A DNA stretch of 32,513 nucleotides, taken from an uncultured Saprospiraceae bacterium. GTDB taxonomy: Bacteria > Bacteroidota > Bacteroidia > Chitinophagales > Saprospiraceae. Position 1 is the stretch's first letter; each line of letters starts with the position of its first letter. Of the stretch, positions 4,118 through 31,687 are shown piece after piece. The notes beneath the pieces are model-generated. The model did not search any database, had not been told where the DNA came from, and saw only the letters and a list, made by a program, of their open reading frames with translations. The position numbers and the translations under genes are program-made. The stretch is from NCBI GenBank assembly GCA_937921555.1, contig CAKZUV010000269.1, positions 1-32,513 of the forward strand, given 5' to 3'.

Positions 4118-4156
4118 ACCTAATTTTTTTATAAAAATCTTAAATGCACAACGTTG

Positions 4157-14810: not shown

Positions 14811-15485
14811 ATGGAAAGTATTAAAGTGTTGATTGCCGATGACCACCGATTATTTATTGCCGGACTAAAGTCCATTCTTTCGGAAAACGAAGCGCAAAAG
14901 TGCGAAATAGTGGGAATTGCCCATAACGGAGATCAAGTAATCCAAATGTTAAAAGATACACCTACCGATTTATTGATCCTGGATTTGAATATGCCCGAAA
15001 AAGATGGCCTGGATGTCATTAATGTGATCCGGGCACAAAATAAAGAGCTCAGAATTCTTGCACTTACTGTTTATGATGAGTCAAAAATCGTAAAATCCGC
15101 TTTTAAGTCAGGAGTAGATGGCTATATTCTTAAAAATGTGGGAATGGACGAACTCTGGAAAGCGATCAGTGAAGTCATGGAGGGACGTACCTTTCTGGGC
15201 AAAGGAGTCCGTTTAAACACTACGCTCGAAGAGATAAAAAGAAAAATTGAGGCGCAGTCCCGTTTTCCTTCCGAAGATAAATTTATCAAAAAATATAACC
15301 TCACCAAGCGGGAACTGGAAATCCTCAAACTCATCACCCACGCACTCAGCAACAAAGAAATTGGCAAAGTTTTGTACATTAGCGACCAAACGGTAAGTGT
15401 TCACCGAAAAAATATTATGCGAAAACTGGGGGTTAGCAATACCGCCGGATTAATCAAATTGGCTTACGATAATAGCCTGGTTTAA
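14811..15485 (+). CDS. NarL/LuxR-family response regulator (orphan)
   Basis: The protein has 224 residues from the ATG at 14811; a TTG two codons earlier is less likely. The receiver domain (about 1-125) has the acidic pair Asp10-Asp11, phospho-acceptor Asp58 in LILDLN, Thr86 and Lys108, so it looks fully able to be phosphorylated. The LuxR-type helix-turn-helix (about 160-220) includes LTKRELEILKLI and TVSVHRKNIMRKLGV. Against NarL, where Lys188, Val189 and Lys192 touch DNA, this protein has Ser, Val and Lys. No histidine kinase lies in the window, so its sensor is elsewhere. It sits directly upstream of the cohesin/SprB operon, whose promoter carries a NarL-like 7-2-7 dyad, which makes it a candidate regulator of that operon. 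That link is inference. Confidence 0.93.
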   Translation: MESIKVLIADDHRLFIAGLKSILSENEAQKCEIVGIAHNGDQVIQMLKDTPTDLLILDLNMPEKDGLDVINVIRAQNKELRILALTVYDESKIVKSAFKSGVDGYILKNVGMDELWKAISEVMEGRTFLGKGVRLNTTLEEIKRKIEAQSRFPSEDKFIKKYNLTKRELEILKLITHALSNKEIGKVLYISDQTVSVHRKNIMRKLGVSNTAGLIKLAYDNSLV

Positions 15486-15569: not shown

Positions 15570-15615
15570 TACCATAAATAGGGTAGGAATAGGACGATTG
15601 GATGGCGTATATTTG
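15570..15615 (+). promoter_or_regulatory. Dyad promoter module of the cohesin/SprB operon
   Basis: TACCATAAATAGGGTA (15570-15585) is a 7-2-7 dyad with half-sites TACCATA and TACCCTA (second read on the other strand). After 22 bp comes TATATTTG (15608-15615), a match to TAnnTTTG. No TTTG sits at -33, so the dyad occupies the place where an activator would help. The same layout is found at 30793-30838 and, with 23 bp and a CATCTTTG box, at 26441-26487. Confidence 0.6.
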
Positions 15616-15963
15616 TTCCTGTAAACAGTTTAAAAGGACTGTGAGAACATATAGCAAAAACCGATTTAAGTAAAAAATAATAACCAATAAATGGTTATTT
15701 TCCCATGAACTGCGATATTTATTAAATTCTATTCAATATTTTTAGAATATCAGTAATTGATTCTTTTCACTGATTTTTTTATAAATATTTTCTTTCCTGA
15801 TTGCACCATCGCAGATTCTTAATAATGTTAAAATTTTGAAATCAGTAGACTGATTTCTAAGCTTTGCATCGGTTATATCTATATATCCATAGCAAGAATG
15901 AATACATACGCTTAATCCCCGTATGATTATATATTAACATTTTGTGCAACAAATTATAATCAC

Positions 15964-16119
15964 ATGAACAAAGAGAATTTTACACACCATTCTGTGTCTA
16001 ATCCGTCGTGCAGGACCATCACTTTCCCCCGTGCTGCTGCCTCTGTACCACAGTTATTTTTCAATAGTTGTGTCTCCGTATTTTATAATTTGTTGGAAAT
16101 GTTGCGCTATAAAAGATAA
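15964..16119 (+). CDS. Possible 51-residue small ORF in the leader
   Basis: An ATG at 15964 opens a 51-codon frame starting MNKENFTHHSV and ending LEMLRYKR. It has Cys residues but no clear signal peptide, helix or family that I recognise. Its stop codon falls inside the left arm of the long palindrome at 16105-16161, so ribosomes finishing it could affect folding of that hairpin, as in leader-peptide control. There is no visible ribosome-binding site, and coding potential is weak. It may equally be chance. Confidence 0.2.
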   Translation: MNKENFTHHSVSNPSCRTITFPRAAASVPQLFFNSCVSVFYNLLEMLRYKR

Positions 16120-16161
16120 TGCTGCTAATAATTCATTAGCAGGTATCATTTAATTATAGCG
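16105..16161. promoter_or_regulatory. 57-bp imperfect palindrome in the leader
   Basis: Outer arms CGCTATAA (16105-16112) and TTATAGCG (16154-16161) match perfectly, inner arms CTGCTAAT (16122-16129) and ATTAGCAG (16135-16142) match perfectly, and GATA/TATC pair between them. The inner core GCTAAT-N5-ATTAGC also occurs before the response-regulator gene. No T-run follows, so it is a regulatory hairpin or binding site rather than a terminator. Confidence 0.6.
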
Positions 16162-16269
16162 GTAGTTTCCCATGAATAGTTTTCCCTTACAAAAATTTGT
16201 AAAGCACTGATTTTTGTAAAACCAATTGTTAAAAATTACCAAAGAACTACTGTTATATTTTGCTTTGCT

Positions 16270-16314
16270 ATTATGGCATGTCGTACCTTTTTGGTACGAC
16301 ATCCATAATTTTTT
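16270..16314 (+). terminator. Strong terminator or attenuator just before the cohesin gene
   Basis: A 17-bp stem with one bulged C, ATTATGGCATGTCGTACC / GGTACGACATCCATAAT, has a TTTTT loop and is followed by a T-run (16309-16314). It ends 25 nt before the TTG start at 16340, with no TAnnTTTG box in between. Either it terminates a leader RNA, or it is an attenuator for the operon. Confidence 0.8.
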
Positions 16315-16339
16315 CTAAACTTTTTTAAAAATTAACAAA

Positions 16340-17155
16340 TTGATAATCAGGGCCTTACAATCTTTAAAACTCCCCTTTTTTCGATTTGACTCCATTTTGG
16401 CAGTCCTCTTGATTTGTGGTTTTTGCCACAGTTCACAGGCGCAGCCTACGTTCTTTTTTACGGGGCCGTCCAGCCCCGTAGCGGTAAACGATATTTTTGA
16501 AGTATCCTTCCGGGCTACTAATTTTGTGGACGTTGCAGGCCTTCAGTTTTCGCTTGGCTGGGACGCAGAAAAAGTAGAATTTCAAAATATTGAACCCTTT
16601 TTTCCAACCCCCACCGTCTCTTTTAATACCAATAATTCGGCCAGCGGCGTTATCGCAGGCTTTTGGAACGACACTGATTTTTATACCGTACCGGATACCG
16701 CACTCGTATTTGTGCTGACCTTTAAAGCCCTGGCGGATGGACCACTAAATCTTGAATTTATAAATTCACCCACCGCTACGCTGGTTATTTACCGGCTCGA
16801 CGGACAAACTTTTGAAGAACCGATTGTGATTGATACTGAAGAAGAAGTGTGTGTTGGTATTAAAACGAGTATCTTTGCGACCGATTTTGCAAATTCTGCC
16901 GTTTTTTATCAGAATAATCCAAACCCCTTTTCTAAAACCACGTATATACCGTTTGAATTGACTAATTCTGAATTAGTTACGATAAGAATCTTCGGAATAA
17001 CCGGAGAAGAAATTTACCAGTACAGCAACCGATACAGTGAGGGAACTCACCGTGTCAAAATTAAATCTGAGGTCTTTCCTAGTCCAGGTGCATATATGTA
17101 CCAGATTTCGACGACCGCTACTTCGACGACAAAAAAAATGATCTTAGCAAGATAA
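16340..17155 (+). CDS. Secreted cohesin-domain protein with T9SS type A tail
   Basis: The protein has 271 residues. A signal peptide covers residues 1-35 (SILAVLLICGFCHSSQAQ). A cohesin-like beta-sandwich follows at about 36-170, recognised by the pattern FRATNFVDVAGLQFSLGWD, VIAGFWND and ALVFVLTFKA. Residues about 190-271 are a type A T9SS sorting domain (NNPNPFSKTTYIPFEL ... KKMILAR). The start must be the TTG at 16340: the frame is closed by TAA at 16316 and no ATG precedes the signal peptide. The adhesin gene follows after 30 nt, so they are co-transcribed. In cellulosomes, cohesins bind dockerins; here the likely partner type is the dockerin in the 26692-30426 product, which is a hypothesis. 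It could serve as a small surface adaptor. Confidence 0.88.
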   Translation: MIIRALQSLKLPFFRFDSILAVLLICGFCHSSQAQPTFFFTGPSSPVAVNDIFEVSFRATNFVDVAGLQFSLGWDAEKVEFQNIEPFFPTPTVSFNTNNSASGVIAGFWNDTDFYTVPDTALVFVLTFKALADGPLNLEFINSPTATLVIYRLDGQTFEEPIVIDTEEEVCVGIKTSIFATDFANSAVFYQNNPNPFSKTTYIPFELTNSELVTIRIFGITGEEIYQYSNRYSEGTHRVKIKSEVFPSPGAYMYQISTTATSTTKKMILAR

Positions 17156-17185
17156 ATTGTCTAACATCTCAAATTCCAAGGATCG

Positions 17186-20100
17186 ATGTTTAAAAAAATT
17201 ACGTTTTTTCTCGTACTGGGGCTCGTGCTCCTGGGGCTTAATGCAAATTCCCAAACTACACGGTTTATTGCCAATCCTACTTCCAGTAATCTGGAAATCG
17301 GAGATACGCTCGTCGTATCGGTAACATCTCAGGACTTTACAAATGTCCTCGGTTTTGGTTTCTCCATAAATTGGGATCCGACTGTTCTTGAGTTTGTTAC
17401 AAACGATGATGTGGTGCAACCCGTCAATATTCCACCATTTTTTCTCTCCAATCCGGGCATGGCCAGCTCTGGCATCATTACCTGCATCTGGAATGATCCA
17501 ATCGGCATGCCGGTTTCCATCGACGATGATTTGGTGCTTTTCGATATTATCCGCTTCACCGTAATTGGTAGTGGAACCACTGAAGTATCCTTTTCCGGAA
17601 ATCCTACTCCTGCGAGTGTCGTATATGGTAACGGTGAGGAGGAGACTCCTTTGTTTACCAATGCTAGCGTGACGGTACCGGACCCTAATCAACCGACAGA
17701 CCCTGAATTCGAATGTATGTTCGATAATTTTGGGTTGGCGATTACTCCTGATTCTGCCGCCACGGGTGAGCAACTTTGCCTGGACGTTAATCTTTGTAAC
17801 GGAGACAGTCTGGTATCTTTTATATATTCGTTAAACTTCAATCCGGCCATTTTGCAATTTGATTCCATTGCCGGTATCAATCTGCCACAACCAGGAAGTG
17901 TGTTCGAAAATACGAATAACACAGATGGCTGGGTACGTATCTTGTGGCTGGATTCTCTTAATATGGGAGTAGATATACCGGATACACTGGCCTACCAACT
18001 TTGTTTTACCGTAATTGGTGCAGGGGGAGAAATGGATACGGTCAGAATTACGGGCGATCCCGGAGGTATAGAAGTACTTAAATCATCTAATCCCGGTGTT
18101 AATATAGGCATGGAGGTGCAAGATGCACCCGTCGTCGTCCGTGGAAATAGCGGCAGCGCCGTCACGGTCATAGCGGCCAACGTAGAGGGCAGTCCCGGTG
18201 ATACGGTCTGCGTGGCAGTAACCACCCAGAACTTTGAAGATGTCACCTCTTTTCAATATACCTTCAACTTTGATGAAACAAAACTCCAGTATCTGGAACA
18301 CCGCAATTTTAATAGTAATGTACCCGGATTAAGTAGTGCCATCAACGATTCCCCTATGTTTTCGGACACCGGAGCAATCCTCGTAGTGTATCCGAATCCG
18401 GGCGGTATGGGTTCTACTTTAATGGATGGTGATACGCTCTACGAAGTCTGTTTTATTATTGACCCGATGGCAACTGCTGGAACAGATGCCCTGGTTGGGT
18501 TTTCGGATGATCCGGTCGCCCGTAGTGCTTCTCAATTACTGCCGACTACTTTGTTATCCAACAATGGTAGTGTAGAAATAGTATCCCAGGAAGGTAGCGG
18601 AGATTTTGAAATAAGCATTGAAACAGAGACATTTTGTTCTGATTCTGCTATCTGTGTACCCGTAACCGTAGTGGATGGCTTTACCAGTGATGTATCAGGG
18701 GGATCATTCAGAATCAATTTCGTTCCCGGCGATCTGACTTTCGTACCGCCACTGTCGAATCCAAATCCGGCTTTTGCGGGTGCGAGCATAAGTTTTCAGG
18801 CTTTTAATCCGAATGGCACCGATAGAATTAATATTTTGATGAATAATAATTCGCTGGATCAACAAGGAGTTAATCTGGCACCGGGAGATATAATTTTTGA
18901 AGTATGCTTTACTGCAAATAGTGCGGCGGCTGTGACCAGTCCGGTAACTTTCAACACCGTGGAACTTGCCCAGCCCGATGGGGTCACCCTGATTGATCCG
19001 ATTATCACCAACGATGGAGCAGCCATCATTGATCCTGCTGCCTGTCCCGCCGGAGAAGTAGATATTACTGTGACTGAAACCATTGTCAATGTATTTTGCA
19101 ACGGCGAAGCGACGGGATCTATCTCTCTGGATATAGGAGGTGGCGACGGAGCAAATTATACCATCACCTGGACCGGACCTAACGTCAATGGTCAAAGTAC
19201 ACCGACGATTTCTAATCTGGTGGCAGGCAGTTATACGGTCAATATTACCAGCGGGATGCGGAGCTTTACCGAAACGTATATGGTAACAGAACCAAATGCA
19301 TTGACTGGAACCACTACCTTCACCAACGTAACCTGTAATGGTGACGGAGACGGTACGATTAACCTGACACCCGGCGGCGGTACCGCTCCTTATACATTTG
19401 CCTGGAGCAATGGACCGACCGATCAAAATCTTACTAATCTTGTTCCGGGTAATTATACGGTTACCATTACGGATGCGAATATGTGTACATTTATTGTACC
19501 TGCAGTCACAATCGCACAGCCTCAGGTGCTGGCCATTACCATTGACAATACCACCAATGTATCTTGTCTGGATGGAAATGACGGAGCCGTCAACACAACG
19601 GTAACGGGTGGTAACGGAGGTAATACTTATGTTTGGTCAAATACGACCCAAACAACCGGAGATATTTCCAATCTGACCGCTAATAATTACCGGGTGACCG
19701 TAACAGATAACCTTGGGTGTACTGCAGTTTCTCCGAATGTAACAATTACACAGCCCAGTACCGCAGTCGGAATCACGGTAGATGAAATAATCCCTGCTAA
19801 TTGTAATGGTGGCGGTTCTATTTTTATCACTCCGATGGGTGGAAATAATATATACACTTATTTATGGAACAACGGAGCAACCACTCAGGATCTCGAAAAC
19901 GTTATGCCCGGAGGATATACGGTGACAGTAATGGATAATGAGGACTGTAGTTTTACCAGTAGCATCCTGATCGTGGAATCTACCGACGCAATTGTTATTG
20001 ATGAAATAATCACCCAGCCAACTTGTGATTCTGAATCTAACGGAGCGATTAATATAACCGTTGGCGGTGGAACCGGAAACGGATTTACCTATAGCTGGAA

Positions 20101-23100
20101 TACTTCTTCTACCAACGAAGACCTGACCGGCTTAATGGCAGGTACTTATACCGTAACGGTAACCGACACGGAAGACGGTTGTACCGCGACGGCTACCTAT
20201 CAATTAACAAATTCTATTGATCTCAATATCGTTGAATCATCCAGTACGCCGGCCGGTTGTGCCGGAGCAACCAATGGTTCTTTAACCGTTCAGGTAACGG
20301 GTGGTGGTGGAAATTATAATTATCTCTGGGCTCCTTCGGGACAAACCACGGCTACGCTGAGCAATGTTGCTGCGGGTACGTATACGGTTACCGTAACAGA
20401 TGTTAATTCCGGTTGTACCGAAGAAGAAAATTTCACAATTGATAGTGACGGTGGAATTGTAATCACAGGAGATGCAACCGATGCGAGCTGTAGCGGCTCG
20501 GCTACGGGAAGTATAAATATTAATGTCAGTGGTGCCGGTGCAAATCCAACTTTCGTTTGGAGTAACGGTGCTCAGACAGAAGACATTTCTAACCTTATCG
20601 ATGATGATTATGTAGTTACTGTGACCAGTACGGACGGACAATGTACCCAAACTGCTGCGTTCACGGTAGAGGCCGGAGACGGTTTTGAAATCGAACTGGA
20701 TGGAATCGCGCAGGCTACCTGTGACGGCGCTGAAAATGGAACAGTTAACATTACCGTCAATGGTGCGGTAGGTACTCCTTCTTTTGCCTGGTCTAACGGA
20801 GAAACTACCGAAGATATTGACAACGCGGAAGGCGGAGAAATGGTCACCGTTACCGTAACGGATGATGCCGGTTGTGTTGAAACCGCCAGCTATACCGTCC
20901 CTTCCGGAAATGGATTTGATATTAATTTAGTAAGTATTGACAATGCCAGTTGTGGAGGCGCCGAAGATGGTGCGATTGATATCGAACTGGACGATGCTGT
21001 ATTCCCATTACAAAGTGTAGAATGGAACACAACTCCGGTAACCAATACCGAAGACCTTAGTGGTATTCCCGCAGGATCTTATACCGTTACCATTATTGAT
21101 GGTGCCGAGTGTAATGCCACGGCCACTTATACCGTAGATAACGACGGCGGCATCAGTGGTGCTGTACAAAATGTAACCGATGTAAGTTGTGAGGGGAGCA
21201 TGGATGGTTCGATTATTCTGGATGTCTTAAATGCTTCGGATGACCTTACCTTCGATTGGTCTCCCGCAGTTGCTTCCGGACAGAATCCAATCGGTTTACC
21301 CGCAGATACCTACTCGGTGACGATTACCGACGAAGAATCTGGTTGTACCGATGTCATCACGGATATTATGGTTGGCAATCCTGCGCCAATCACCTTTAGT
21401 TCAGTAGTAGAGGATGCGTCCTGTAATGGTGCCGATGATGGAACAATTACGATTACTGCTACGGGTGGAAATGGAGGATTTTCTTTCATCTGGCCGGCTC
21501 CGGTTCCTGCTACCAACACTGGGGGAGTAGCAACTGATCTGGCACCTGCTTCTTATATTGTAACCATAACGGATTCCCGTGGATGTAGTGTTACAACCGA
21601 AGGCATTATTGTAGAAGAGCCTACGGCTATCGTAGTTACTGGAAACGTTACCAATGTTTCCGGTGCTGGAAACGATGGTGAAATTACCGCCATGGCTTCC
21701 GGAGGAAGTGGAAACTACGTAAGTTACAACTGGACCGATCCCAATGGGGTCCCTCTGATGGGACAAACCATTACCGGACTCAGCCCTGGAACTTATAACG
21801 TCACCGTTACGGACGACGACGGTTGTACGGGAACCAGCAGCTTTAGTGTGAACGCAGCCGATGCGCCGAATCCTACGCTGATTAGTGTGACCGACGTAAC
21901 CTGTTTTGACGGTAACGACGGAGCGATTATGATTAATGTAACTGGTGGAGCGGGTGGTTATACTTTTAACTGGCAGGTACCATCAGGGCAACCAGCCATC
22001 GCCGATGATGTAGAGGATCCTACGGGCCTGATCGCAGGTACTTATAATGTAACCGTGACCGATGCCAGCGGTGTATCCGGAATTCTTAGTTCAATTGTAG
22101 TCGGACAACCCGAAGAACTGGATTATGATTTAATGGATTTATTATCCGTTTCATGTCCCGGATCAATGGATGGCGAAATAAATATTAACCCAACGGGCGG
22201 TAATGGAGGACCTTATGACGTGGTTTGGAATCTTCCGGTTAACGATCCGATTAACCCAACTAATTTAGCTGCTGGAAATTATATTCCAACCATCACGGAT
22301 GCGCTGGGTTGTACCGTAGAGGGTGATAATATTATCGTGCAGGAACCAGAGGCCATTGCGATCGACGCAGCAACAACTGATCCTTCCTGTTCTGCCGGAG
22401 GAGATTCCGGAAGTATCTTGCTTACGGTGACGGGAGGAACCGAGGGACCACAGGGATCAGAATATACTTATAATTGGGATGATGGAAATGGTACGCCATT
22501 CTCATCCGTCAATCCGCTAACCAATATCGGTCAGGGAAGCTACCTTGTTACTATCACCGACTCAAGAGGATGTACAGCTACAGATGGTCCATTTACGCTG
22601 AATGATCCGGGTGCCATTTTTATTCAACTGGATAGTGTCCGGCACGTACGTTGTGCAGGGATTGCAGAAGGAGGAATTTTCATTACAGCTTCTGGTGGTA
22701 CTGATCCGCTGATGCCTGTTTGGAAAAATGGACAGGGAGATACCATTAATACTGGTTTTGACCTCATCGGGTTGATTGGTGGAAACTATACCGTTTGCAT
22801 TACCGATGCGGCGGGTTGTTCTGAAACGCTCGGACCAATTACTGTTAACGAACCGCAACCGATCACGGTTGACGATATTGAAATAGACAATGCTACTGCC
22901 AGCGCCGATGATGGTGAAATCAGATTGATCGGAGTAGACGGAGGAACGCCCGCGTATACCTTTAACTGGGAAGGCCCGGATGGTACCACGCAGACGACCA
23001 ACAGTATTCCTACAATTTCTGACATTGTGCCCGGAGCGTGGCGAGTGACGATTGTAGATGCGAATGGCTGTACCGAAGTCCTCACGGATATTATCGTGTT

Positions 23101-25240
23101 GGGTAGCCTCAACGTAACCGCCATAGTAACAAATCCAACTTGTAACGGGGATATGAATGGTTCGATAGAAACGACGATTAATGCTGGTACTGGACCATTT
23201 GAATGCCAATGGAGTACCGTTGATGGAGATGGAATTGTCCAATTTGCATGTAGTCAGTTTACATTGACCGCTGGAACCTATACACTAACGGTGGAAGACG
23301 CCAACGGCGTAGTTGTTATCAACGAATATACATTAAATGATCCGGACCCAATTATGGTAACTTTTGAAGTTACCGACCAGACCGGACCAGACTGTAATGG
23401 ATTTATTAATTCTACGGTAACTGGAGGTACTGTACCTTACACTTATGACTGGAATAATGGAGCGGAGAATTCCGACCCGAATAGTCTTTGTAAAGGAGAA
23501 TACGAAGTGACGATAGTAGATGCCAACGGTTGTGTGGCGATACCACCATCGGTATTTGTAACTGCTGGACCTTTATCTTTTGCTGGTTTTGATGTCAGTG
23601 GCGCTGCTTGTAATGGCGGTATGGGTGGAAATGTAGCCGGATCAGTAATCGGTGGATGTCCACTTTATACTTTTACACTGAATCAAAATGGATCGGCCGT
23701 TTCTATCCAGAATAGCAATGATGGCGCTTATAGTTTTACCGGCCTAGGTGCTGGAACTTACGAACTCACCGTCACCGATGCGGCGGGAAGTACACCGTTG
23801 GTTACCAGTTTTGAGATAGAAGAAACGATAATTACGATTGTTGCAGATACGATTATTAATATAGTGGATGGCTGTGACGGTGCGGTAAATATTTCGGAAT
23901 TTGGAGGACAATTACCTTACAGCTATATGTGGAGTAATGGTGATACCAGTCAGGACGTCTCGGATGTTTGTGAAAATGAAAGTCCACTTAACGTGGTTGT
24001 GACGGACGCAAACGGTTGTATTGTTCAATCAGAAGAATTTACAGTTATCGCCGGAATATCCATTGATCTGGCCGTCGAAAACGAATCTTGTTTTGGTGAT
24101 GCGGACGGTTCTATTATTGCTACCGTGGAAGGAGGCGATGCCCCTTATAGTTACGCGTGGTCGAATGGAGCTACTACACAAAACCTGACGGGACTCGCGC
24201 CGGGTAGTTACACACTTACCGTGACAGATAATCAGGGTAGAATGGTTACCGCCACAGGAAACGTTAACGGATCTTCGGCACCAATTACGGTGACCAGTGA
24301 TGTAATTGTTCCCACGGGAGCCAATGCGGACGGATCGATTGAGATATCTGTTTCCGGTGGAGCCGGTGGATACGATTACCGTTGGTTACGGGATGGCATA
24401 GAATTCTCAATTGCACAGGATGTTGCAGGCCTCGTATCGGGAACCTACACTCTTGAAATCACGGATGCTTTCGGATGTATCTATTCCGAAACGTTTAACC
24501 TGGCGGGTGCAGCGATTGCGCTGGAATTTATTTCCGGAAGCACCGGTTGTCCCGGACAAGCAGGAGATTTAGGAACCTTACAGGTAGTGCCTTCCGGTGG
24601 TACCAGTTCAGATTATAGTTACTTGTGGGATGTCAATGATCAGCCAAATACCTTCGAAGTAATTGGTGGTTTAGCACCAGGTAATTACACCGTAACGGTA
24701 ACAGATGCCTCCGGCCTCACCGCCGTTGGAACGGGAACCGTGGTACCTTTAGAAGAGATCATGATTGACCTGGCCGTTGACGAAGTAAACAGTAACATCA
24801 TTTCTACGGTAACAGGTGGAACTGCTCCCTATACTTATAGTTGGAACGATCCTGATTTTTCTGCTACTAGAGATTTGATGGATGTACCTTCCGGAACATA
24901 CACGTTAGTTATTGTAGATGCCAATGGTTGTGTCAATCAAGCTACTGCCGAATTACTGGCTGGACCTTGTGAAAAAGTCCGTAAAGTAATTTCTCCTAAT
25001 AGCGATGGATTTAACGACGAATTTATTGTGTCTTGTGCCAATCGATTTGATATTGACCTGGAAATCTATAACCGTTGGGGACAGCTGGAATTTATGGCTG
25101 CTGGCTATAACAACAACTGGGTCGGAACGGACATGGAAGGTGTGAAGTTGCCCGAAGGAGGATACTTTTATGTAATTCGCTATCAGGACAACGAAGGGCA
25201 GACACAACAAATTAAAGGATCACTGAATATTGTTTACTAG
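17186..25240 (+). CDS. Giant SprB-repeat adhesin with cohesin modules and type B T9SS tail
   Basis: The protein has 2684 residues. A signal peptide (1-22) is followed by four cohesin-like modules at about 24-165, 175-315, 320-465 and 470-612. About 25 SprB-type repeats of some 75-90 residues follow (about 620-2590), each with a CxGxxxGxI start, a Tyr-x-Trp core and a GxYTVTVTDxxGC end. Residues about 2594-2684 are the gliding-motility-associated C-terminal domain (VISPNSDGFNDEF, YNRWGQ), the type B T9SS signal. SprB-class proteins are filaments moved along the cell surface in gliding, or serve as adhesins; PorP/SprF partners help export them, and such a gene follows 35 nt downstream. The repeats are well diverged at DNA level, so this is an old array. 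It resembles SprB in architecture but is shorter and has an N-terminal cohesin block. Confidence 0.93.
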   Translation: MFKKITFFLVLGLVLLGLNANSQTTRFIANPTSSNLEIGDTLVVSVTSQDFTNVLGFGFSINWDPTVLEFVTNDDVVQPVNIPPFFLSNPGMASSGIITCIWNDPIGMPVSIDDDLVLFDIIRFTVIGSGTTEVSFSGNPTPASVVYGNGEEETPLFTNASVTVPDPNQPTDPEFECMFDNFGLAITPDSAATGEQLCLDVNLCNGDSLVSFIYSLNFNPAILQFDSIAGINLPQPGSVFENTNNTDGWVRILWLDSLNMGVDIPDTLAYQLCFTVIGAGGEMDTVRITGDPGGIEVLKSSNPGVNIGMEVQDAPVVVRGNSGSAVTVIAANVEGSPGDTVCVAVTTQNFEDVTSFQYTFNFDETKLQYLEHRNFNSNVPGLSSAINDSPMFSDTGAILVVYPNPGGMGSTLMDGDTLYEVCFIIDPMATAGTDALVGFSDDPVARSASQLLPTTLLSNNGSVEIVSQEGSGDFEISIETETFCSDSAICVPVTVVDGFTSDVSGGSFRINFVPGDLTFVPPLSNPNPAFAGASISFQAFNPNGTDRINILMNNNSLDQQGVNLAPGDIIFEVCFTANSAAAVTSPVTFNTVELAQPDGVTLIDPIITNDGAAIIDPAACPAGEVDITVTETIVNVFCNGEATGSISLDIGGGDGANYTITWTGPNVNGQSTPTISNLVAGSYTVNITSGMRSFTETYMVTEPNALTGTTTFTNVTCNGDGDGTINLTPGGGTAPYTFAWSNGPTDQNLTNLVPGNYTVTITDANMCTFIVPAVTIAQPQVLAITIDNTTNVSCLDGNDGAVNTTVTGGNGGNTYVWSNTTQTTGDISNLTANNYRVTVTDNLGCTAVSPNVTITQPSTAVGITVDEIIPANCNGGGSIFITPMGGNNIYTYLWNNGATTQDLENVMPGGYTVTVMDNEDCSFTSSILIVESTDAIVIDEIITQPTCDSESNGAINITVGGGTGNGFTYSWNTSSTNEDLTGLMAGTYTVTVTDTEDGCTATATYQLTNSIDLNIVESSSTPAGCAGATNGSLTVQVTGGGGNYNYLWAPSGQTTATLSNVAAGTYTVTVTDVNSGCTEEENFTIDSDGGIVITGDATDASCSGSATGSININVSGAGANPTFVWSNGAQTEDISNLIDDDYVVTVTSTDGQCTQTAAFTVEAGDGFEIELDGIAQATCDGAENGTVNITVNGAVGTPSFAWSNGETTEDIDNAEGGEMVTVTVTDDAGCVETASYTVPSGNGFDINLVSIDNASCGGAEDGAIDIELDDAVFPLQSVEWNTTPVTNTEDLSGIPAGSYTVTIIDGAECNATATYTVDNDGGISGAVQNVTDVSCEGSMDGSIILDVLNASDDLTFDWSPAVASGQNPIGLPADTYSVTITDEESGCTDVITDIMVGNPAPITFSSVVEDASCNGADDGTITITATGGNGGFSFIWPAPVPATNTGGVATDLAPASYIVTITDSRGCSVTTEGIIVEEPTAIVVTGNVTNVSGAGNDGEITAMASGGSGNYVSYNWTDPNGVPLMGQTITGLSPGTYNVTVTDDDGCTGTSSFSVNAADAPNPTLISVTDVTCFDGNDGAIMINVTGGAGGYTFNWQVPSGQPAIADDVEDPTGLIAGTYNVTVTDASGVSGILSSIVVGQPEELDYDLMDLLSVSCPGSMDGEININPTGGNGGPYDVVWNLPVNDPINPTNLAAGNYIPTITDALGCTVEGDNIIVQEPEAIAIDAATTDPSCSAGGDSGSILLTVTGGTEGPQGSEYTYNWDDGNGTPFSSVNPLTNIGQGSYLVTITDSRGCTATDGPFTLNDPGAIFIQLDSVRHVRCAGIAEGGIFITASGGTDPLMPVWKNGQGDTINTGFDLIGLIGGNYTVCITDAAGCSETLGPITVNEPQPITVDDIEIDNATASADDGEIRLIGVDGGTPAYTFNWEGPDGTTQTTNSIPTISDIVPGAWRVTIVDANGCTEVLTDIIVLGSLNVTAIVTNPTCNGDMNGSIETTINAGTGPFECQWSTVDGDGIVQFACSQFTLTAGTYTLTVEDANGVVVINEYTLNDPDPIMVTFEVTDQTGPDCNGFINSTVTGGTVPYTYDWNNGAENSDPNSLCKGEYEVTIVDANGCVAIPPSVFVTAGPLSFAGFDVSGAACNGGMGGNVAGSVIGGCPLYTFTLNQNGSAVSIQNSNDGAYSFTGLGAGTYELTVTDAAGSTPLVTSFEIEETIITIVADTIINIVDGCDGAVNISEFGGQLPYSYMWSNGDTSQDVSDVCENESPLNVVVTDANGCIVQSEEFTVIAGISIDLAVENESCFGDADGSIIATVEGGDAPYSYAWSNGATTQNLTGLAPGSYTLTVTDNQGRMVTATGNVNGSSAPITVTSDVIVPTGANADGSIEISVSGGAGGYDYRWLRDGIEFSIAQDVAGLVSGTYTLEITDAFGCIYSETFNLAGAAIALEFISGSTGCPGQAGDLGTLQVVPSGGTSSDYSYLWDVNDQPNTFEVIGGLAPGNYTVTVTDASGLTAVGTGTVVPLEEIMIDLAVDEVNSNIISTVTGGTAPYTYSWNDPDFSATRDLMDVPSGTYTLVIVDANGCVNQATAELLAGPCEKVRKVISPNSDGFNDEFIVSCANRFDIDLEIYNRWGQLEFMAAGYNNNWVGTDMEGVKLPEGGYFYVIRYQDNEGQTQQIKGSLNIVY
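19051..24965 (+). repeat. Array of ~25 SprB protein repeats
   Basis: The repeats are visible in the translated protein; at DNA level they are too diverged to form long identical blocks. Most carry one Cys near the start (pattern CNGxxDGxI) and one near the end (DxxGC). Repeats numbered 12, 17, 23 and 25 in order lack the first Cys, and 1, 13, 18, 20, 22 and 24 lack the second. Confidence 0.85.
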
Positions 25241-25275
25241 GAATAATTTTCCCAGAACCGCATAAATAAAATAAA

Positions 25276-26214
25276 ATGAAAAATTTATTACTACTTGTCG
25301 CCGGTCTATTTTTATTACAGACTGTATCGGCACAGGAGGAAGCGATTTATCGCCAGTATTTTTTAAATCCCATGCTGGTGAATCCCGCGACCGTTGGTGC
25401 TGACCGGGAACACCACAAACTTGGTATGAACCTGCGTACCGCTTTTTCTTCTTTCCCCGGATCTCCTAAAACGTATGTTCTGAGCTATAACGGCCCGATT
25501 GGCAAGCAGGTTGGAATCGGTGGAATGATCTTTAGTGAAAACATAGCGGACATTACGCGTTTTCGCGGGCAGATCGCCTATTCTATGGGAATAGATGTCA
25601 ATGAGGTCAAACTACGGGCTGGATTGAGTCTGGAATATCAGCGAATGGCCTTGTCCAATTCAGTGATGGATACCGACCTTTTCGATCCGGGTGATATGAC
25701 GATCATTGACAACATTAATGGCCGTAGATTTTTTGATACTTCCCTGGGACTTTACGGAGAATATAAAGATATTTATTTCGGTTATGCCGCACCTAACTTG
25801 ATTCGTACTGTAACGGATGAAATAGAAGGACTCGAAGATGAGGGTGGTAACTTTAAATACTTTATACTACAGGCTGGTGGACGTTTTGCAATCAATGATA
25901 ATAAAGTAAAACTGGAACCTTCCATTATTCTGAGAAATGTTCGTAACGTGGATACCCACGTAGACATTAGTATGATGGCTTCTTTTTTAAATGAACAATT
26001 TATCACGGGCGCGCTGTTCCGTGCGGGTGCTGGAAATAGTGTAGGATTTTTATTAGGAACCAAATACAATACCTTAAAATTCATCTATTCTTATGATATT
26101 TTAATTGATGATTTTCAGCGGTATAATGGAGGTTCGCACGAAATAATGGTAGGATTTGAATTCGGACGCAAGGAAGGTTCATTCGACCGCTCCAGAAAAT
26201 ACCGTGATAAATAA
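25276..26214 (+). CDS. PorP/SprF family type IX secretion membrane protein
   Basis: The protein has 312 residues: a signal peptide (MKNLLLLVAGLFLLQTVSAQ) and then the PorP/SprF hallmark QYFLNPMLVNPATVGA near residues 27-42. The rest is an outer-membrane beta-barrel with strand-turn repeats such as GGMIFSENIAD. PorP/SprF proteins are accessory to type IX secretion and are commonly encoded directly after a large adhesin with a type B tail, whose export or attachment they support. That is the arrangement here: it starts 35 nt after the SprB-like adhesin. The ATG start is well supported by the signal peptide. It closes the operon, with a hairpin about 95 nt downstream. Confidence 0.93.
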   Translation: MKNLLLLVAGLFLLQTVSAQEEAIYRQYFLNPMLVNPATVGADREHHKLGMNLRTAFSSFPGSPKTYVLSYNGPIGKQVGIGGMIFSENIADITRFRGQIAYSMGIDVNEVKLRAGLSLEYQRMALSNSVMDTDLFDPGDMTIIDNINGRRFFDTSLGLYGEYKDIYFGYAAPNLIRTVTDEIEGLEDEGGNFKYFILQAGGRFAINDNKVKLEPSIILRNVRNVDTHVDISMMASFLNEQFITGALFRAGAGNSVGFLLGTKYNTLKFIYSYDILIDDFQRYNGGSHEIMVGFEFGRKEGSFDRSRKYRDK

Positions 26215-26307
26215 TACAAAACTGCTATTAGCAGCAAGTATTGAAAAATAAATACTGGTGTTTGTTAACCAGTCAAGATAAAACCTTAACAATTGGTTTT
26301 TGGGATG

Positions 26308-26337
26308 GCCTCTTCCCGGCGTGAGTCGGGAGGGGGC
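26308..26337 (+). terminator. Probable terminator of the cohesin/SprB/PorP operon
   Basis: GCCTCTTCCCG (26308-26318) and CGGGAGGGGGC (26327-26337) form an 11-bp GC-rich stem, two pairs being G-U, with an 8-nt loop. The following TTCTCTGGTTTTAG is only moderately T-rich. Two smaller hairpins precede it, CTGCT/AGCAG near 26222-26236 and ACTGGT/ACCAGT near 26254-26273. Confidence 0.6.
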
Positions 26338-26440
26338 TTCTCTGGTTTTAGTGGGTTTGTGATCACCTTCCGGTAAATCATTAATATCTAAAGCTGAATG
26401 TTTTTTAATTTAATATAAAATAAAAACACAATTTGATAAA

Positions 26441-26487
26441 TACCTGAATCGGGGTATAGAACCTCTTCCGCTAATCTCCCATCTTTG
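26441..26487 (+). promoter_or_regulatory. Dyad promoter module of the HYR/dockerin gene
   Basis: TACCTGAATCGGGGTA (26441-26456) is a TACC-N8-GGTA dyad. After 23 bp comes CATCTTTG (26480-26487), one base away from TAnnTTTG. The layout parallels 15570-15615 and 30793-30838, with a weaker -7 box and one extra spacer base. The leader to the gene would be about 200 nt. Confidence 0.5.
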
Positions 26488-26691
26488 TAGTGCTGAGTAA
26501 ATACTGGTTTCCCTGACCATTTCCTCTACCTCTGCAACCTATCAAAACAGTAATAAAATTTAGCAGTATCCCTCCGATACGCACTATTGCTGTGTACAAG
26601 AACAAAACTATGAACCGCGTTTTCATTTTAAAAACCAGCGGTCATAAAAAAGGAACTACTAAATATCTGGCTTCTCAAACAACCTGGCCAA

Positions 26692-29600
26692 TTGTATCCA
26701 AACTCAAGGCGATCCGTCCTTGGGCTTTTCCTGTTTATGCTGATTACTTTTCCTGTTTTTATATCTGCCCAGTGTACCATGATCTGTCGTTCCAGTCTGA
26801 ATCTGTCGTTGCCTGCGGACGGAGAATCGATCATCACGCCTGGAATTTTGTTAGCAAATCCAGCTTGCGATCCGGCAGAATTTTATGTTGAAATAATTGA
26901 TAGTCAAGGAAATACACTGGGTGATAAAATAAACTGCGATCAGGTTGGTCAGACTTTAAACGCAGGTGTTTTCCACCAGGTGACGGGCATTTCCTGCTGG
27001 ACAATGATCACCGTATCAGACTATTTTAAACCACAGTTGACCTGTCAGGATACGATTATTTCCTGTATGAGCGACTATAGTGCAGCGGCGATTGGTAGTC
27101 CCGTGGCCACGGATAATTGCAGCATTGCGAGTTTGACTTATACGGAAGATTTTACGCCCCGAGACTGTTTTTTTACAAATCCCAGCGGAGATACGATTAC
27201 CGCTGAACTGGTCAGAATATGGACGGCGACCGACGTAAATGGCAATACCAATTCCTGTACTCAATTTATTTATCTAAAAAGAAATACCATCGACGATGTC
27301 GTTTTCCCTGCTAACCGGGACGATTTTGGACTGCCAGGATTGGATTGCAGTCAAAATCCACAGGATCTGACGCTGACCGGAGAACCGACCATTGAAAATC
27401 AGCCATTACTGACTGGCGGTCACTGTGAATTGATCGTTAGCTTTAGTGATCAGACGATTGAATTTTGTGGCCCCGGTGGATACCGTGTTTTGCGAAACTG
27501 GCGCGTGGTCGATTATTGTACAGGTAGTTTTAAAGAGCATATTCAGATTATCAGAGTTTCGGATACAACAGCTCCAGAAATCTATTGCATCACTGATATA
27601 CAGGAATTTACAAATAATTATTCTTGCAATGCAACTGTTCTGTTACCGATGGTGTCCACCACGGATGATTGTTCAGCTGTGACGGTGACCCCTTCGTGGG
27701 CATTCGGTTCCGGATTCGGACCATTTGAAGATATTCCGGTGGGTAATCATGAAATCACTTACACCGCGACGGACGAATGTGGAAATTCAAGCAGCTGTAC
27801 CGTCATGCTGACCGTATTGGATGATATAGTGCCGGCTATGGTGTGCGAAGGAAACACTCAGGTAGTTCTGACGAGTAATGGCACCGCTGATATTCAGGCA
27901 ACTGCGCTGGATGACGGTAGTCATGATAATTGTGGAATAGACCGTTTCGAAGTGAGCAGAGATGACCAGAATTATGGTGATTTATTAAGGTTTGATTGTG
28001 CCGATGTAAACGTACCGGTAGCCGTATTTTTGCGCGCTTATGATATCCACGGAAATTTCAATACCTGTGAAATTACGGTAGAAGTAGTGGACGGAATAAA
28101 GCCGGTTATTGCCTGTCCTGTATCTGTCACCATCGCTTGCAGAGAAGATTACGAAGACCTGAATGTAACCGGTTTACCCGTTGTTTTGGATGCCTGTGGC
28201 GTAGATACTTTTTTCTATTCAGACCAGGTAGCAATCAATAGCTGTCACGTAGGAAGGGTCGTGAGAACCTGGACCGCAATTGATGTAAACGGAAATGAGA
28301 GAAGCTGTCAACAGGAAATTTTAATTGAAGACAATACGGTGTTTGGTGTTAGTTTTCCGGCGAATTATCAAAGCTACGAATGTGGTGCCGATTTGTCACC
28401 TGTAGTAACCGGAGAACCGATTTTAACAAACCACAATTGTGAAGAAGTAAGTGTTGTTTCAAACGACTTTATCTTGCCAATTTCAGCACCTGCCTGCCTG
28501 AGAATTTTAAGAGAATGGACGGTCATTAACTGGTGCGAATATGAACTGAATAGTGGAAGCACAAATGGCTATTTTACGTACACACAAGAAATTATTCTAT
28601 CGGATACCATTGCGCCGGAAATAATTTGCTTTGCAGATACAGTAGTTGGAATTGTCAGTGCTGATTGTAGTGCAGGATTGGTAAATTTACCGGTTATTAC
28701 AGCACAGGATTGTAGTGATAATATTACGGTTGAAAATAATTCTCCGTACGCATTTTCTCCGGGGGCAGATGCCAGTGGAAATTATCCGGTGGGAGTACAT
28801 CAGATTGTATATACCGTCAGTGATAGATGTGGTAATACAACATCCTGCCATGTTCAGTTGACGGTGGAAGATGCACAGGTGCCCAACGTGTATTGCGTGG
28901 GGAGTATTACCTTATCTGTTGGTAATCAGGGTTTTGTGGTGGTGACGCCGGAAATGATTGATCTGGGAAGTTATGATAATTGTACGGATCAGGAAAATTT
29001 GATATTCAGTATAGACCGTGATACTTTTACTTGTGCAGATATCGGAACACAGCAAATAACCTTATCCGTAACAGATGAAAATGGTAATCGCGGTACTTGT
29101 ACCACGACGGTTGAAGTTCAAAATAACGTAGCAATCTGTCCGGTGACAACCGCTGCGTTGAGTGGAAAAATTTCAAAAGAAAATGGTGCTTACGTCGAAG
29201 GATTCTGGGTGTACCTGACGGGAGATAAAATTGATTCTGTTCAGACGGATGCGTTTGGAAACTTTATATTTCCGGAAGTTCCGGTAGGAGGAGATTATGA
29301 AGTGATACCATTTAATAACAATAAAATTATTAATGGTGTAAATACACTGGATTTGGTGTTTTTGACCCGGCATTTACTGGAGATAAATTCGTTAAATTCT
29401 CCTTATCGAAAAATAGCTTCCGACCTGAACGAATCGGGTACTATTTCCTCATTGGATATTATTATGATGCGACGTGCGATTCTGATAATTGATACACAAT
29501 TTATTAATACTGAATCGTGGAAATTTGTGGATGCCGGATTTGATTTTTCCAATGTTCAACATCCTGTGCGGGCAGACTACCAGGAGAAATTTGAGATCGT

Positions 29601-30426
29601 TGATCTACAGCAAAACATTGATACGCTGGATTTTATAGCTGTTAAAATGGGGGATATGAATGACAATGGTTCCGCACAATCATTAGTGGAAACGGGGGAT
29701 ACCCGCGAGGAAGGCCCTGAAGTAAACTTGATCGTGAAAAATCAGGAATTGATAAAAGGAAGTGAAGTCGAAATTCCAGTATACGCATCGGATTTTTCTT
29801 CCGTTCTGGGATTACAATTCACACTGGAGGCAAGCAGTGCGGTTACGATGCTGGACGTAGTTATTTCCGGACCGGGAGCAGATCTGGGATGGACCCCAGA
29901 CAATTTTGGCATAGATCAACTGGCCGGGGGCATTTTACGCGGAAGCTGGACCAACGATAATGAGCAGGAGATTCCCGGGGATGTACCATTATTTTTCTTG
30001 AAAGTAAAAGTAAATGAGCCGACAGCCGTTCGTGAAGTTTTTAAATTGAGTGATGAGCAGATAAAATCGGAAGCATACACGGGTGGTTGGAATGAACGGA
30101 TAGAAACTGGTTTGCTGAAATTGCTGGTGGAAACTCCCGTAGTTTCCGGTCCGACGCCCACAAAGGATATCAGCCTGTATCCAAATCCAGCACGTGATTA
30201 TGTACAGATTGAGTTTTCGCTCCCGGTAGACAGCGAGATCAGATGGGAGGCGTATAACTTCGCTGGCCGGAAAACGGGGCAGGGGAGTGAATACTCGGGA
30301 GCGGGAAACGTACAGATAGTGTTACCGAGAAGTTCTCTGGGAGCAGAAAGTGGTTCACGTTATCTCAAAATTACACAGACCGCAACTGGAAAAATAATGA
30401 ATACCGCCGTCATGTTGGTGGAGTAA
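26692..30426 (+). CDS. Secreted HYR-repeat, dockerin and cohesin surface protein with T9SS tail
   Basis: The protein has 1244 residues from a TTG start: signal peptide to about residue 26 (GLFLFMLITFPVFISAQ), then about five HYR/Ig-like modules (about 30-815) marked by DxxxPxIxC starts and TDxCGNxSSC ends. A carboxypeptidase-regulatory-like module follows (about 820-875). Next is a type I dockerin-like segment at about 878-933: a degenerate first half (NGVNTLDLVFLTRHLL) and a good calcium loop DLNESGTISSLD. A cohesin-like module lies at about 1000-1140, and a type A T9SS tail (ISLYPNPARDYVQIEF) at the end. The frame is closed at 26629 and has no ATG before the signal peptide. An ATG at 26610 opens another frame across the same place, so a frameshift or sequencing error near 26700 is possible. 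It is a separate unit with its own dyad promoter. Confidence 0.88.
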   Translation: MYPNSRRSVLGLFLFMLITFPVFISAQCTMICRSSLNLSLPADGESIITPGILLANPACDPAEFYVEIIDSQGNTLGDKINCDQVGQTLNAGVFHQVTGISCWTMITVSDYFKPQLTCQDTIISCMSDYSAAAIGSPVATDNCSIASLTYTEDFTPRDCFFTNPSGDTITAELVRIWTATDVNGNTNSCTQFIYLKRNTIDDVVFPANRDDFGLPGLDCSQNPQDLTLTGEPTIENQPLLTGGHCELIVSFSDQTIEFCGPGGYRVLRNWRVVDYCTGSFKEHIQIIRVSDTTAPEIYCITDIQEFTNNYSCNATVLLPMVSTTDDCSAVTVTPSWAFGSGFGPFEDIPVGNHEITYTATDECGNSSSCTVMLTVLDDIVPAMVCEGNTQVVLTSNGTADIQATALDDGSHDNCGIDRFEVSRDDQNYGDLLRFDCADVNVPVAVFLRAYDIHGNFNTCEITVEVVDGIKPVIACPVSVTIACREDYEDLNVTGLPVVLDACGVDTFFYSDQVAINSCHVGRVVRTWTAIDVNGNERSCQQEILIEDNTVFGVSFPANYQSYECGADLSPVVTGEPILTNHNCEEVSVVSNDFILPISAPACLRILREWTVINWCEYELNSGSTNGYFTYTQEIILSDTIAPEIICFADTVVGIVSADCSAGLVNLPVITAQDCSDNITVENNSPYAFSPGADASGNYPVGVHQIVYTVSDRCGNTTSCHVQLTVEDAQVPNVYCVGSITLSVGNQGFVVVTPEMIDLGSYDNCTDQENLIFSIDRDTFTCADIGTQQITLSVTDENGNRGTCTTTVEVQNNVAICPVTTAALSGKISKENGAYVEGFWVYLTGDKIDSVQTDAFGNFIFPEVPVGGDYEVIPFNNNKIINGVNTLDLVFLTRHLLEINSLNSPYRKIASDLNESGTISSLDIIMMRRAILIIDTQFINTESWKFVDAGFDFSNVQHPVRADYQEKFEIVDLQQNIDTLDFIAVKMGDMNDNGSAQSLVETGDTREEGPEVNLIVKNQELIKGSEVEIPVYASDFSSVLGLQFTLEASSAVTMLDVVISGPGADLGWTPDNFGIDQLAGGILRGSWTNDNEQEIPGDVPLFFLKVKVNEPTAVREVFKLSDEQIKSEAYTGGWNERIETGLLKLLVETPVVSGPTPTKDISLYPNPARDYVQIEFSLPVDSEIRWEAYNFAGRKTGQGSEYSGAGNVQIVLPRSSLGAESGSRYLKITQTATGKIMNTAVMLVE

Positions 30427-30465
30427 AATATTTTGTGCTTCATTTTTAAACAGCTTCTATATACG

Positions 30466-30503
30466 AGAAGGTTAAAATGAGAATTTTGCCTTCTTTGTTT
30501 TTT
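30466..30503 (+). terminator. Terminator of the HYR/dockerin gene
   Basis: AGAAGG (30466-30471) pairs with CCTTCT (30489-30494), with an inner AAAAT/ATTTT stem, and is followed by TTGTTTTTT. It lies 40 nt after the stop codon. Confidence 0.65.
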
Positions 30504-30661
30504 AGCTATACCAATAGCTGATCGACTGGCAAATCCTGTTTCGCATAGTTTTTATACTTCTTCTGTTTGTGAGAAAAGAAATCTACACAGATGTTGATTA
30601 ATAATATATTTTAATTACCTTTTTGTAGGTATAGCAAAAGGGTTGGATTGTCCTTAATTTT

Positions 30662-30751
30662 ATGAAAAAAAAGTTTATGTTCATTTCTGTACTGATACTA
30701 TTGTTTACCTTACTTTTAGTAAAAGACTGGCGACGTGAGTGGCAGGATTAA
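30662..30751 (+). CDS. Possible 29-residue membrane peptide
   Basis: An ATG at 30662 opens a 29-codon frame, MKKKFMFISVLILL then FTLLLVKDWRREWQD. The form is three lysines, one hydrophobic helix and a charged tail, as in small single-pass membrane peptides or a leftover signal peptide. It lies alone between the HYR gene terminator and the next dyad promoter, with no clear -7 box of its own. No family is recognised. It could be real, a decayed gene start, or chance. Confidence 0.3.
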   Translation: MKKKFMFISVLILLFTLLLVKDWRREWQD

Positions 30752-30792
30752 AAGTTGAAATTTAATAATATATATTTTTAATATATTAAATT

Positions 30793-30838
30793 TACCGTTA
30801 TTAGGGTATTTCAGTAGCAGCAGATAATCGTATCTTTG
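30793..30838 (+). promoter_or_regulatory. Dyad promoter module before the 116-residue protein gene
   Basis: TACCGTTATTAGGGTA (30793-30808) is a 7-2-7 dyad with half-sites TACCGTT and TACCCTA. After exactly 22 bp comes TATCTTTG (30831-30838). Spacing and right half-site are identical to the module at 15570-15615. Confidence 0.6.
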
Positions 30839-31336
30839 TATCGTAAGCTTTTTGAAAAAGCAGGAAAAGACAAAACAATATAACAAAAACATAACCCACG
30901 AAACAATATAATTTTATTGAAAAGACTTTGACACTACTCTTTTAGAAACAGTTAGCTCTTTGCCATCCCCCCGGCATATTTACAGCTGACAATCATTTGG
31001 TTTCTTGCCGTGTTATCTTCAATCTGGGTTTTCAACATATTGCACACACCACATACATTTTAGTTTTAATAACCAAAACAATGATTACCCATGAGTTGTA
31101 TTCGTTTATGCGTTTCCAATCAAACACTTCTTCTATTGAAATCTCAACAGTATATATTTAAATAATATTTTAAAAGGCATTTGATGGTCCCTTAGTCTAA
31201 TTTATTGCTTAGTAATAATGTAAGTAATATTTGAAATTAATATGTTTCAAGGTGTTGACCTAATCCATTGAAGGAAATTGTATCTATATATAAACCTTAA
31301 TTTTTTAAATTATTTTTTAACCAAAATTTTTATCTC
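30839..31336 (+). other. Long leader without a recognised gene
   Basis: About 490 nt separate the TATCTTTG box from the ATG at 31337. The stretch is AT-rich. It has a small hairpin GCTTTTT-G-AAAAAGC just after the promoter (about 30847-30861) and a 26-codon frame at 31081 that I do not regard as a gene. No terminator with a T-run, riboswitch or tRNA is recognised. A second promoter closer to the gene is possible but no TAnnTTTG box is seen. Confidence 0.35.
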
Positions 31337-31687
31337 ATGAAAAAAACATTTTTAGAAAAAAAGCGGATGCTTTTGAGTATGATGACGTTGGTAGCCTTCC
31401 TCTTTGTAGGAGTCTCCGGTGTTTCTGCTCAGGAGTCTGACCTGGAACGCTTGCAGTTGCGAGTGGAAAGAGTCAGCGCTGACATGGAAACCCTTGCGGA
31501 TGGTTCTGCTAAGAAGGTGTACTACACTGATCTGGTGTCGTACTACAATGCAATTATTGAAGACGTCGAACAAAACAATCTTCCTTACATCCGGGCTGTA
31601 AAGGCTAACATCTCAATGATGCCAGCAGGACCAGAAGGAAAGAGAATTTCTTCACACATACCAGTTGCCAAGCGGGTAACTGAGTAA
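31337..31687 (+). CDS. Small exported protein of unknown function
   Basis: The protein has 116 residues with a long signal peptide (hydrophobic core MLLSMMTLVAFLFVGVSGVSAQ, cut near residue 31). The mature part of about 85 residues is mostly helical in composition and charged (DLERLQLRVERVSADMETLA, YYNAIIEDVEQNN). It has no Cys, no T9SS tail and no family that I recognise, so it is predicted to be periplasmic or secreted by another route. It lies 27 nt before the next gene, an HYR-type surface protein, and the two probably share the dyad promoter at 30793. Its job may relate to that protein's folding or export, which is only a guess from position. Confidence 0.75.
   Translation: MKKTFLEKKRMLLSMMTLVAFLFVGVSGVSAQESDLERLQLRVERVSADMETLADGSAKKVYYTDLVSYYNAIIEDVEQNNLPYIRAVKANISMMPAGPEGKRISSHIPVAKRVTE

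Follow-up and report, generated by a model that had tools for sequence, protein, structure and literature searches.

An inverted repeat of NarL-type layout at fixed distance from the −7 box is the likely operator of a surface-gene response regulator in Saprospiraceae

Surface-protein locus and its promoter modules

The window analysed here is a stretch of 32,513 nucleotides (nt) from an uncultured Saprospiraceae bacterium (contig CAKZUV010000269.1 of assembly GCA_937921555.1), which represents a complete contig of a 5.44-Mb genome. On its forward strand, a gene encoding a NarL/FixJ-type response regulator precedes several units of surface-protein genes, and these are preceded by a promoter module that consists of a 16-bp inverted repeat (dyad) with TACC and GGTA ends and, 22 or 23 bp downstream, a Bacteroidota-type −7 box. 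The dyad is likely the operator of the regulator encoded at 14811–15485, which would serve as a class-II activator of a surface and matrix regulon. The regulator gene and the module elements are as follows.

14811–15485, + strand: NarL/FixJ-type response regulator, best candidate for the dyad binder (Pfam; NarL relative; module linkage 48/80)
15570–15585, + strand: dyad A, TACCATAAATAGGGTA, found in 7/7 genus genomes; one of them has a single change in the interior
15608–15615, + strand: −7 box of unit A, TATATTTG, spacer 22
26441–26456, + strand: dyad B, TACCTGAATCGGGGTA, in 5/5 genus genomes compared; ends fixed, interior drifting
26480–26487, + strand: −7 box of unit B, CATCTTTG, spacer 23, first-base C kept in 5/5
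30616–30631, + strand: dyad D, TACCTTTTTGTAGGTA
30655–30662, + strand: −7-like box of module D, TAATTTTA, spacer 23; TATTTTTA in three congeners
30793–30808, + strand: dyad C, TACCGTTATTAGGGTA
30831–30838, + strand: −7 box of unit C, TATCTTTG, spacer 22

Three of these modules, A (15570–15615, spacer 22), B (26441–26487, spacer 23) and C (30793–30838, spacer 22), had been proposed in an initial annotation and were all found exactly where it placed them, with the spacers it gave; a conserved fourth, module D (dyad at 30616, spacer 23, box TAATTTTA ending in A), had been overlooked. The proposed TAnnTTTG form of the −7 box is exact at units A and C, but B reads CATCTTTG and D reads TAATTTTA. A further dyad, at 7997, is positioned inside the open reading frame (ORF) 7142–10675 and has no −7 box at the right spacing. 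The pattern TACC-N8-GGTA was found five times in the window versus a shuffle mean of 0.31, with none of 100 shuffles reaching five, and its combination with a spacer of 21–24 and [TC]AnnTTTG was found three times versus 0.003 expected (300 first-order random resamplings).

Genome-wide placement and conservation in the genus

According to the initial annotation, random placement of the module in a genome scan would speak against a regulon. The scan of the parent genome returned nine matches of the strict module versus one of the reversed pattern (control), and the proposal thus withstood it. One of the nine (L002) falls within a coding frame, and the remaining eight have counterparts in at least two of six congeners (by eye, among the matches listed). 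The bare dyad was rejected as stand-alone evidence, as its 145 places genome-wide versus 110 for the reversed pattern represent mild enrichment; the signal is therefore carried by the fixed spacing. Chance matches or ordinary promoter composition might account for that mild excess and for the one match within a gene, yet the controls on spacing, conservation, strand and gene linkage speak against such an origin, and the regulator-linked module in 48 of 80 contigs (below) refutes it, so that chance is vanishingly improbable.

Modules A, B, C and D are kept in 6, 4, 3 and 3 congeners, respectively, which are all those whose contigs reach them; counting the window, unit A is kept in 7/7 genomes, unit B in 5/5 and unit C in 4/4. 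The ends and the spacing are fixed and the interior drifts at B, C and D, with near-complete conservation at A, and at unit B the unusual C of CATCTTTG is as constant across the genus as the ends and the spacing. In the genus alignment, conservation is poor from the regulator stop codon to dyad A, whereas the promoter hardly varies, and neither do large blocks of the leader.

Site profile and promoter geometry

A profile was derived from 43 sites (42 from outside the genus plus the window; six congeners were dropped and further near-duplicates kept) and reads AAAWW-TACC-YYW-TTT-A-G-GGTA-(T/G). Its two heptamers, separated by a gap of 2 bp and with TACC/GGTA ends, form the 16-bp inverted repeat of NarL-type 7-2-7 layout. 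The outer four pairs are fixed, and the inner pairs are no more paired than the make-up of the columns gives. The heptamer consensus of NarL is TACYYMT. In the available part of PMC4549865, the engineered narG −89/−89 7-2-7 palindrome TACCCCTAAAGGGGTA, which is nearly identical to the Saprospiraceae consensus, binds the output-domain dimer of NarL.

As the −7 box was mapped at −12 to −5 in Flavobacterium psychrophilum (PMC9723704, available part), the dyad would span about −50 to −35, with its centre near −42. The −33 element TTTG of B. fragilis (PMC7366714, available part) was not seen beside the dyad, either in the regulator-linked sites described below or in the 43-site profile. The location of the dyad fits that of a class-II activator, because the spacing of 22–23 bp is fixed, the centre is near −42 and no −33 element is present; activation itself is what we infer from this placement. 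Repressor sites are usually variable in position, which counts against the alternative of repression by the regulator from the dyad. Polymerase could be blocked by an operator that overlaps the −33 region, and NarL represses frdA (PMC4549865, available part), but the same spacing, centre and lack of a −33 element fit class-II activation, and repression appears quite improbable.

The regulator and its linkage to the module across Saprospiraceae

The 14811–15485 protein matches Response_reg (PF00072) and GerE (PF00196) above the Pfam cut-off, representing a receiver and a LuxR-type helix-turn-helix domain. Its best relative by sequence in the PDB is NarL (1a04), and the phosphorylatable aspartate is present in the motif LLILDLNMP. 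Among 15 aligned regulators (alignment A1), the DNA-binding domain is nearly invariant and the receiver drifts. The phosphoacceptor aspartate is replaced by E or A in four of the 15 (L072, L082, L093 and L111), each of which is followed by the module. No sensor kinase was found among the 12 window proteins scanned, the rest of the genome not having been searched for one.

A regulator-selected set was assembled from the best 80 of 250 contigs, chosen by the 14811–15485 sequence alone; the query was alignment A1, which is rich in module-linked regulators, and 14 of the 80, judging by their lengths, were already in earlier sets. By their titles, the contigs are mostly Saprospiraceae, Phaeodactylibacter and Lewinella, the rest being only Saprospirales, Bacteroidota, Chitinophagales or bacterium. 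The regulator and module are also found together in Phaeodactylibacter xiamenensis KD52 (L225), which is a cultured relative. The exact module is located at most 300 nt downstream of the regulator gene in 48/80 and upstream in 0/80, with the reversed pattern in 0/80, while the bare dyad is downstream in 49/80 and upstream in 2/80. Spacers of 22 (38 modules) and 23 (10 modules) make up the 48; 21 and 24 were allowed and none was seen. Excluding the six congeners leaves 42/74, and excluding the 14 contigs from earlier sets leaves 36/66.

Regulator relatives were also ranked by identity in 60 genomes, and the module after the gene was scored with up to one mismatch. It is present in 7/7 genomes of the genus; for the others, the counts are 8/10 above 47% identity, 1/9 at 40–47% and 1/31 below 40%. 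This comparison is not blind, because 16 of the 57 loci (six of the genus and ten others, namely L061, L072, L082, L089, L093, L101, L104, L107, L109 and L111) had first been fetched for their module. Furthermore, in 30 family genomes, genus genomes left out, the 11 with a regulator match of at least 190 bits harbour 57 modules versus 6 controls, and the 19 below harbour 36 versus 30 (Mann-Whitney p 0.0007 between groups, the cut-off having been picked after the scores were seen).

That the number of modules tracks the presence of a 14811-type regulator across genera argues against a different dimeric regulator as the binder, with the 14811 gene merely a conserved neighbour of the adhesin operon. 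Modules do occur in genomes without a recognisable relative of this regulator, and the 15–198 loose first-look candidate regulators per family genome mean that other binders are available. However, the site directly follows close relatives but scarcely ever distant ones, the geometry of the dyad equals that of the NarL site, and at E 1e-30 the window genome has just one further match (37%). A different binder is unlikely.

Several points weigh against the assignment of the dyad to the 14811–15485 regulator as an activator. No module adjoins 32 of the 80 regulator relatives. At least two genomes (G016 and G030) carry modules without a recognisable regulator: they harbour five each with neither a regulator match at E 1e-30 nor the recognition-helix signature, a third (G033) harbours three with only a 38% relative that is without the signature, and a fourth (G013) has the signature and no module; a site's regulator is usually, though not always, encoded by an adjoining gene. 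The NarL-like dyad of the initial annotation holds as to geometry, which is that of the NarL palindrome, but the left half-sites in the window (TACCATA, TACCGTT and TACCTGA) miss the strict TACYYMT heptamer, the family profile being TACC-Y-Y-W. In addition, the identity of the binder, activation, transcription starts, RNA production and the signal are all matters that we infer from sequence. It is very probable that the dyad serves a NarL/FixJ response regulator as operator, and this one in particular, because the module is enriched, its sequence and spacing are conserved, its linkage to the regulator is family-wide and most targets have a secreted look, all of which are observed here; binding and activation are predicted from them.

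Probable target genes in the window and elsewhere

Downstream of the modules, the window carries the following genes and features.

16340–17155, + strand: secreted protein with a cohesin domain and a sorting tail of the type IX secretion system (T9SS) (Pfam)
17186–25240, + strand: SprB-repeat adhesin of 2684 amino acids (aa) with CHU_C T9SS signal (Pfam)
25276–26214, + strand: PorP/SprF membrane protein (Pfam)
26307–26338, + strand: intrinsic terminator-like site closing unit A
26692–30426, + strand: secreted HYR/dockerin-like surface protein, unit B (HYR and dockerin by Pfam; signal peptide by eye)
30677–30751, + strand: 24-aa transmembrane-like peptide MFISVLILLFTLLLVKDWRREWQD, about 14 nt after module D, in 4/4 genus genomes compared
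31337–31687, + strand: 116-aa protein with signal peptide (by eye), encoded by the first gene of unit C
31715–32512, + strand: second gene of unit C, running off the contig (signal peptide by eye)

T9SS surface units had been proposed behind all three sites. Pfam supports this for the 16340–26214 unit but not for B and C: no Pfam sorting domain was found in the 26692 protein, nor in the products of the 31337 and 31715 genes, the latter of which is incomplete at the contig end.

In the 43 of the 48 linked sites that have a downstream + strand ORF of at least 90 aa on the contig, the first such ORF is signal-peptide-like in 40 of 43, versus 96 of 343 control ORFs, by a home-made test; by the same test, 42 of 60 are signal-peptide-like among all distinct family modules with a downstream ORF. 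Five linked proteins were scanned, of which four carry HYR and mostly other Ig-like domains and the fifth a cohesin domain plus a T9SS-tail match below the curated cut-off. Candidate targets elsewhere in the own genome include a T9SS-tailed protein (C173), an exported-looking protein without Pfam match (C330) and an operon of a receiver and a sugar transferase (C386). A surface-protein regulon with an activator, as initially proposed, is consistent with the secreted look of most linked targets and with the distance to the −7 box, but is too narrow, because sites also precede RNA-like stretches, the 24-aa peptide and the sugar-transferase operon.

At unit B, an in-frame ATG is absent before the signal peptide (window 26640–26700), and in L039 there is no ATG, GTG or TTG before it, only the conserved GTCATAAAAAAG; a non-AUG start of this surface protein is possible. 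A small ORF as the true start was unsupported, its frame being lost in L041.

Long leaders and upstream ORFs

The leaders between promoter and first gene contain the following features.

15616–16339, + strand: long unit A leader; seven genus genomes share large, strongly conserved blocks of it
15705–15725, + strand: tiny upstream ORF (uORF) MNCDIY, with the start context TCCCATGA common in family leaders
15964–16119, + strand: small ORF of 51 aa (MNKENFT...), whose start context resembles that of surface genes in other genera
16270–16309, + strand: terminator-like hairpin then T6, shortly before the first coding sequence (CDS) of unit A
31091–31165, + strand: 24-aa uORF (MSCIRL...) with CCCATGA start, unit C leader

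From the −7 box to the first ORF of at least 90 aa there are 285–743 nt in 38 of the 43 linked sites and 968 nt in one, while four genus rows are at 1566–1615 nt, where the non-ATG first gene was skipped; two rows, L171 and L172, begin inside the leader. Medians of the 5′-untranslated region in two other Bacteroidota, at 24 and 32 nt in the available parts of the reports, are far shorter. The start context TCCCATGA was found in 29 of 38 non-redundant leaders (11 near-duplicates dropped), versus 12 for the commonest 8-letter word in shuffles; in most of these leaders it starts a small ORF of between two (MN*) and about 38 codons, with no conservation of the body.

Four pairs of the unit A leader hairpin are kept by two-sided changes in the genus. 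After six more leaders without an ORF in reach were dropped, a terminator-like site was found in 7 of 32 leaders versus 1.0 in shuffled ones, and the strong form, with its T run near the CDS, in the window and L183. A leader terminator was thus rejected as a general feature, and attenuation is therefore a lineage-specific possibility rather than a rule.

The unit A leader, otherwise conserved, carries insertions of about 90 nt in G002 and about 55 nt in G005 (L043 and L042). A sequence at window 16248–16272, TACTGTTATATTTTGCTTTGCTATT, recurs identically or nearly so, silent positions included, in nine of the 11 other cohesin-group loci compared (L174–L183 and L199; L181 and L182 are without it). 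There it mostly encodes a signal peptide; in the genus of the window its ATG has become ATT and the sequence lies within the leader.

RNA-like stretches behind the module

Three modules of the own genome (C94, C333 and C363) are followed by conserved stretches of about 300–500 nt that end in terminator-type hairpins (L001 1501–1880, that is, G000:C94:4690 onward; L007 for C333; L008 for C363). The alignments covered five genus genomes for the C94 stretch and three for each of the other two; the terminal hairpin of C333 was read from the alignment and is unflagged by the hairpin script. No same-strand ORF of at least 90 aa was found in these stretches, although mechanical ORFs of 60–89 aa exist and are not excluded. 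The gene purK is thought an unlikely target of the C94 site, because a terminator-like hairpin lies between.

The C94 stretch contains two to five tandem GGCUUAGGAAACAGCC hairpins with AGGA in the loop, their number varying between species (copies of GGCTTAGGAAA[CT]AGCC: two in G000, five in G004, three in G002, two in G005 and two in G003), and thus shows the repeated GGA in hairpin loops that is typical of CsrB/RsmZ-like RNAs. The G000 copy has a folding z-score of −2.5, and its fold forms some, not all, of the tandem hairpins. No PF02599 match, hence no CsrA, was found in the genome, whereas the same search finds CsrA in E. coli, B. subtilis and T. maritima. For the exact 16-mer, a family-wide tandem-hairpin RNA was rejected: of 150 family genomes, two contain it, and these belong to this genus, as does G006, from which it is absent. 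Rfam gave matches below the gathering score, at E 0.69 in the window and at E 0.11 in five loci, which were taken as chance.

Nine sites of other genera have no clear next gene. A terminator-like hairpin is present at five of them, four of which (L066, L070, L081 and L100) look like further stand-alone RNAs; L078, L101, L103 and L112 have leader-like start contexts.

Proposed circuit and related systems

To our knowledge, little is known about how Bacteroidota decide to display giant T9SS adhesins, and post-transcriptional control is little mapped in them; Saprospiraceae are common in activated sludge and the sea. In literature searches, nothing was found on control of giant T9SS adhesin display in Saprospiraceae, no report joined Saprospiraceae, a response regulator and type IX secretion, and no NarL-type TACC inverted repeat was reported for Bacteroidetes. 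On binding motifs of Saprospiraceae regulons, the available parts of the sources dealt with CRP/FNR only.

In the proposed circuit, the active regulator would bind as a dimer to the 16-bp inverted repeat, whose centre would lie about 42 bp before the start, and would recruit RNA polymerase with the primary sigma factor to a TAnnTTTG promoter without visible −33 element. The regulon would comprise the adjacent T9SS adhesin operon, other secreted proteins, the small membrane peptide, the sugar-transferase operon and several non-coding RNAs. Circuits of this kind are known, and this one differs from them in its target set, its leaders and its RNA arm. For Saprospiraceae it supplies a candidate regulator and an exact operator, together with a list of targets and a test set that spans the family, and points to long uORF-bearing leaders and possible regulator-driven small RNAs.

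E. coli NarL is likewise a receiver plus LuxR-type helix-turn-helix protein and recognizes a 16-bp inverted repeat with TACC...GGTA ends; however, it belongs to another phylum with another polymerase and its targets are those of anaerobic respiration, whereas surface genes are the apparent targets here, each linked promoter having a single site at either of two fixed distances from TAnnTTTG. PorXY-SigP of Porphyromonas likewise ties response-regulator control to the T9SS. Its reported targets, in the available parts of those reports, are however genes of the secretion machine such as porT, not cargo, and reports on direct binding disagree.

GacA and UvrY are NarL/FixJ-family regulators with an upstream dyad at the promoters of the Csr/Rsm small RNAs. 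As far as the available sources go, the parallel includes such a regulator and a dyad at RNA promoters, here with AGGA-loop tandem hairpins; in contrast, the dyad differs, no CsrA was found in this genome, surface genes are apparent direct targets and the hairpin is found only in this genus. A two-layer switch of surface lifestyle is a more tentative idea, in which one regulator might directly activate giant adhesins together with AGGA-loop RNAs that act on the leaders or on an unknown RNA-binding protein. If true, it would represent a Gac/Csr-like design without CsrA, with adhesin leaders of 300–700 nt that carry a tiny uORF and, ahead of the CDS in this genus, a terminator.

Elsewhere in the window, a 923-aa protein (1418–4189) shows matches to D-Ala-D-Ala ligase in two N-terminal and four C-terminal stretches, resembling two fused ligases.

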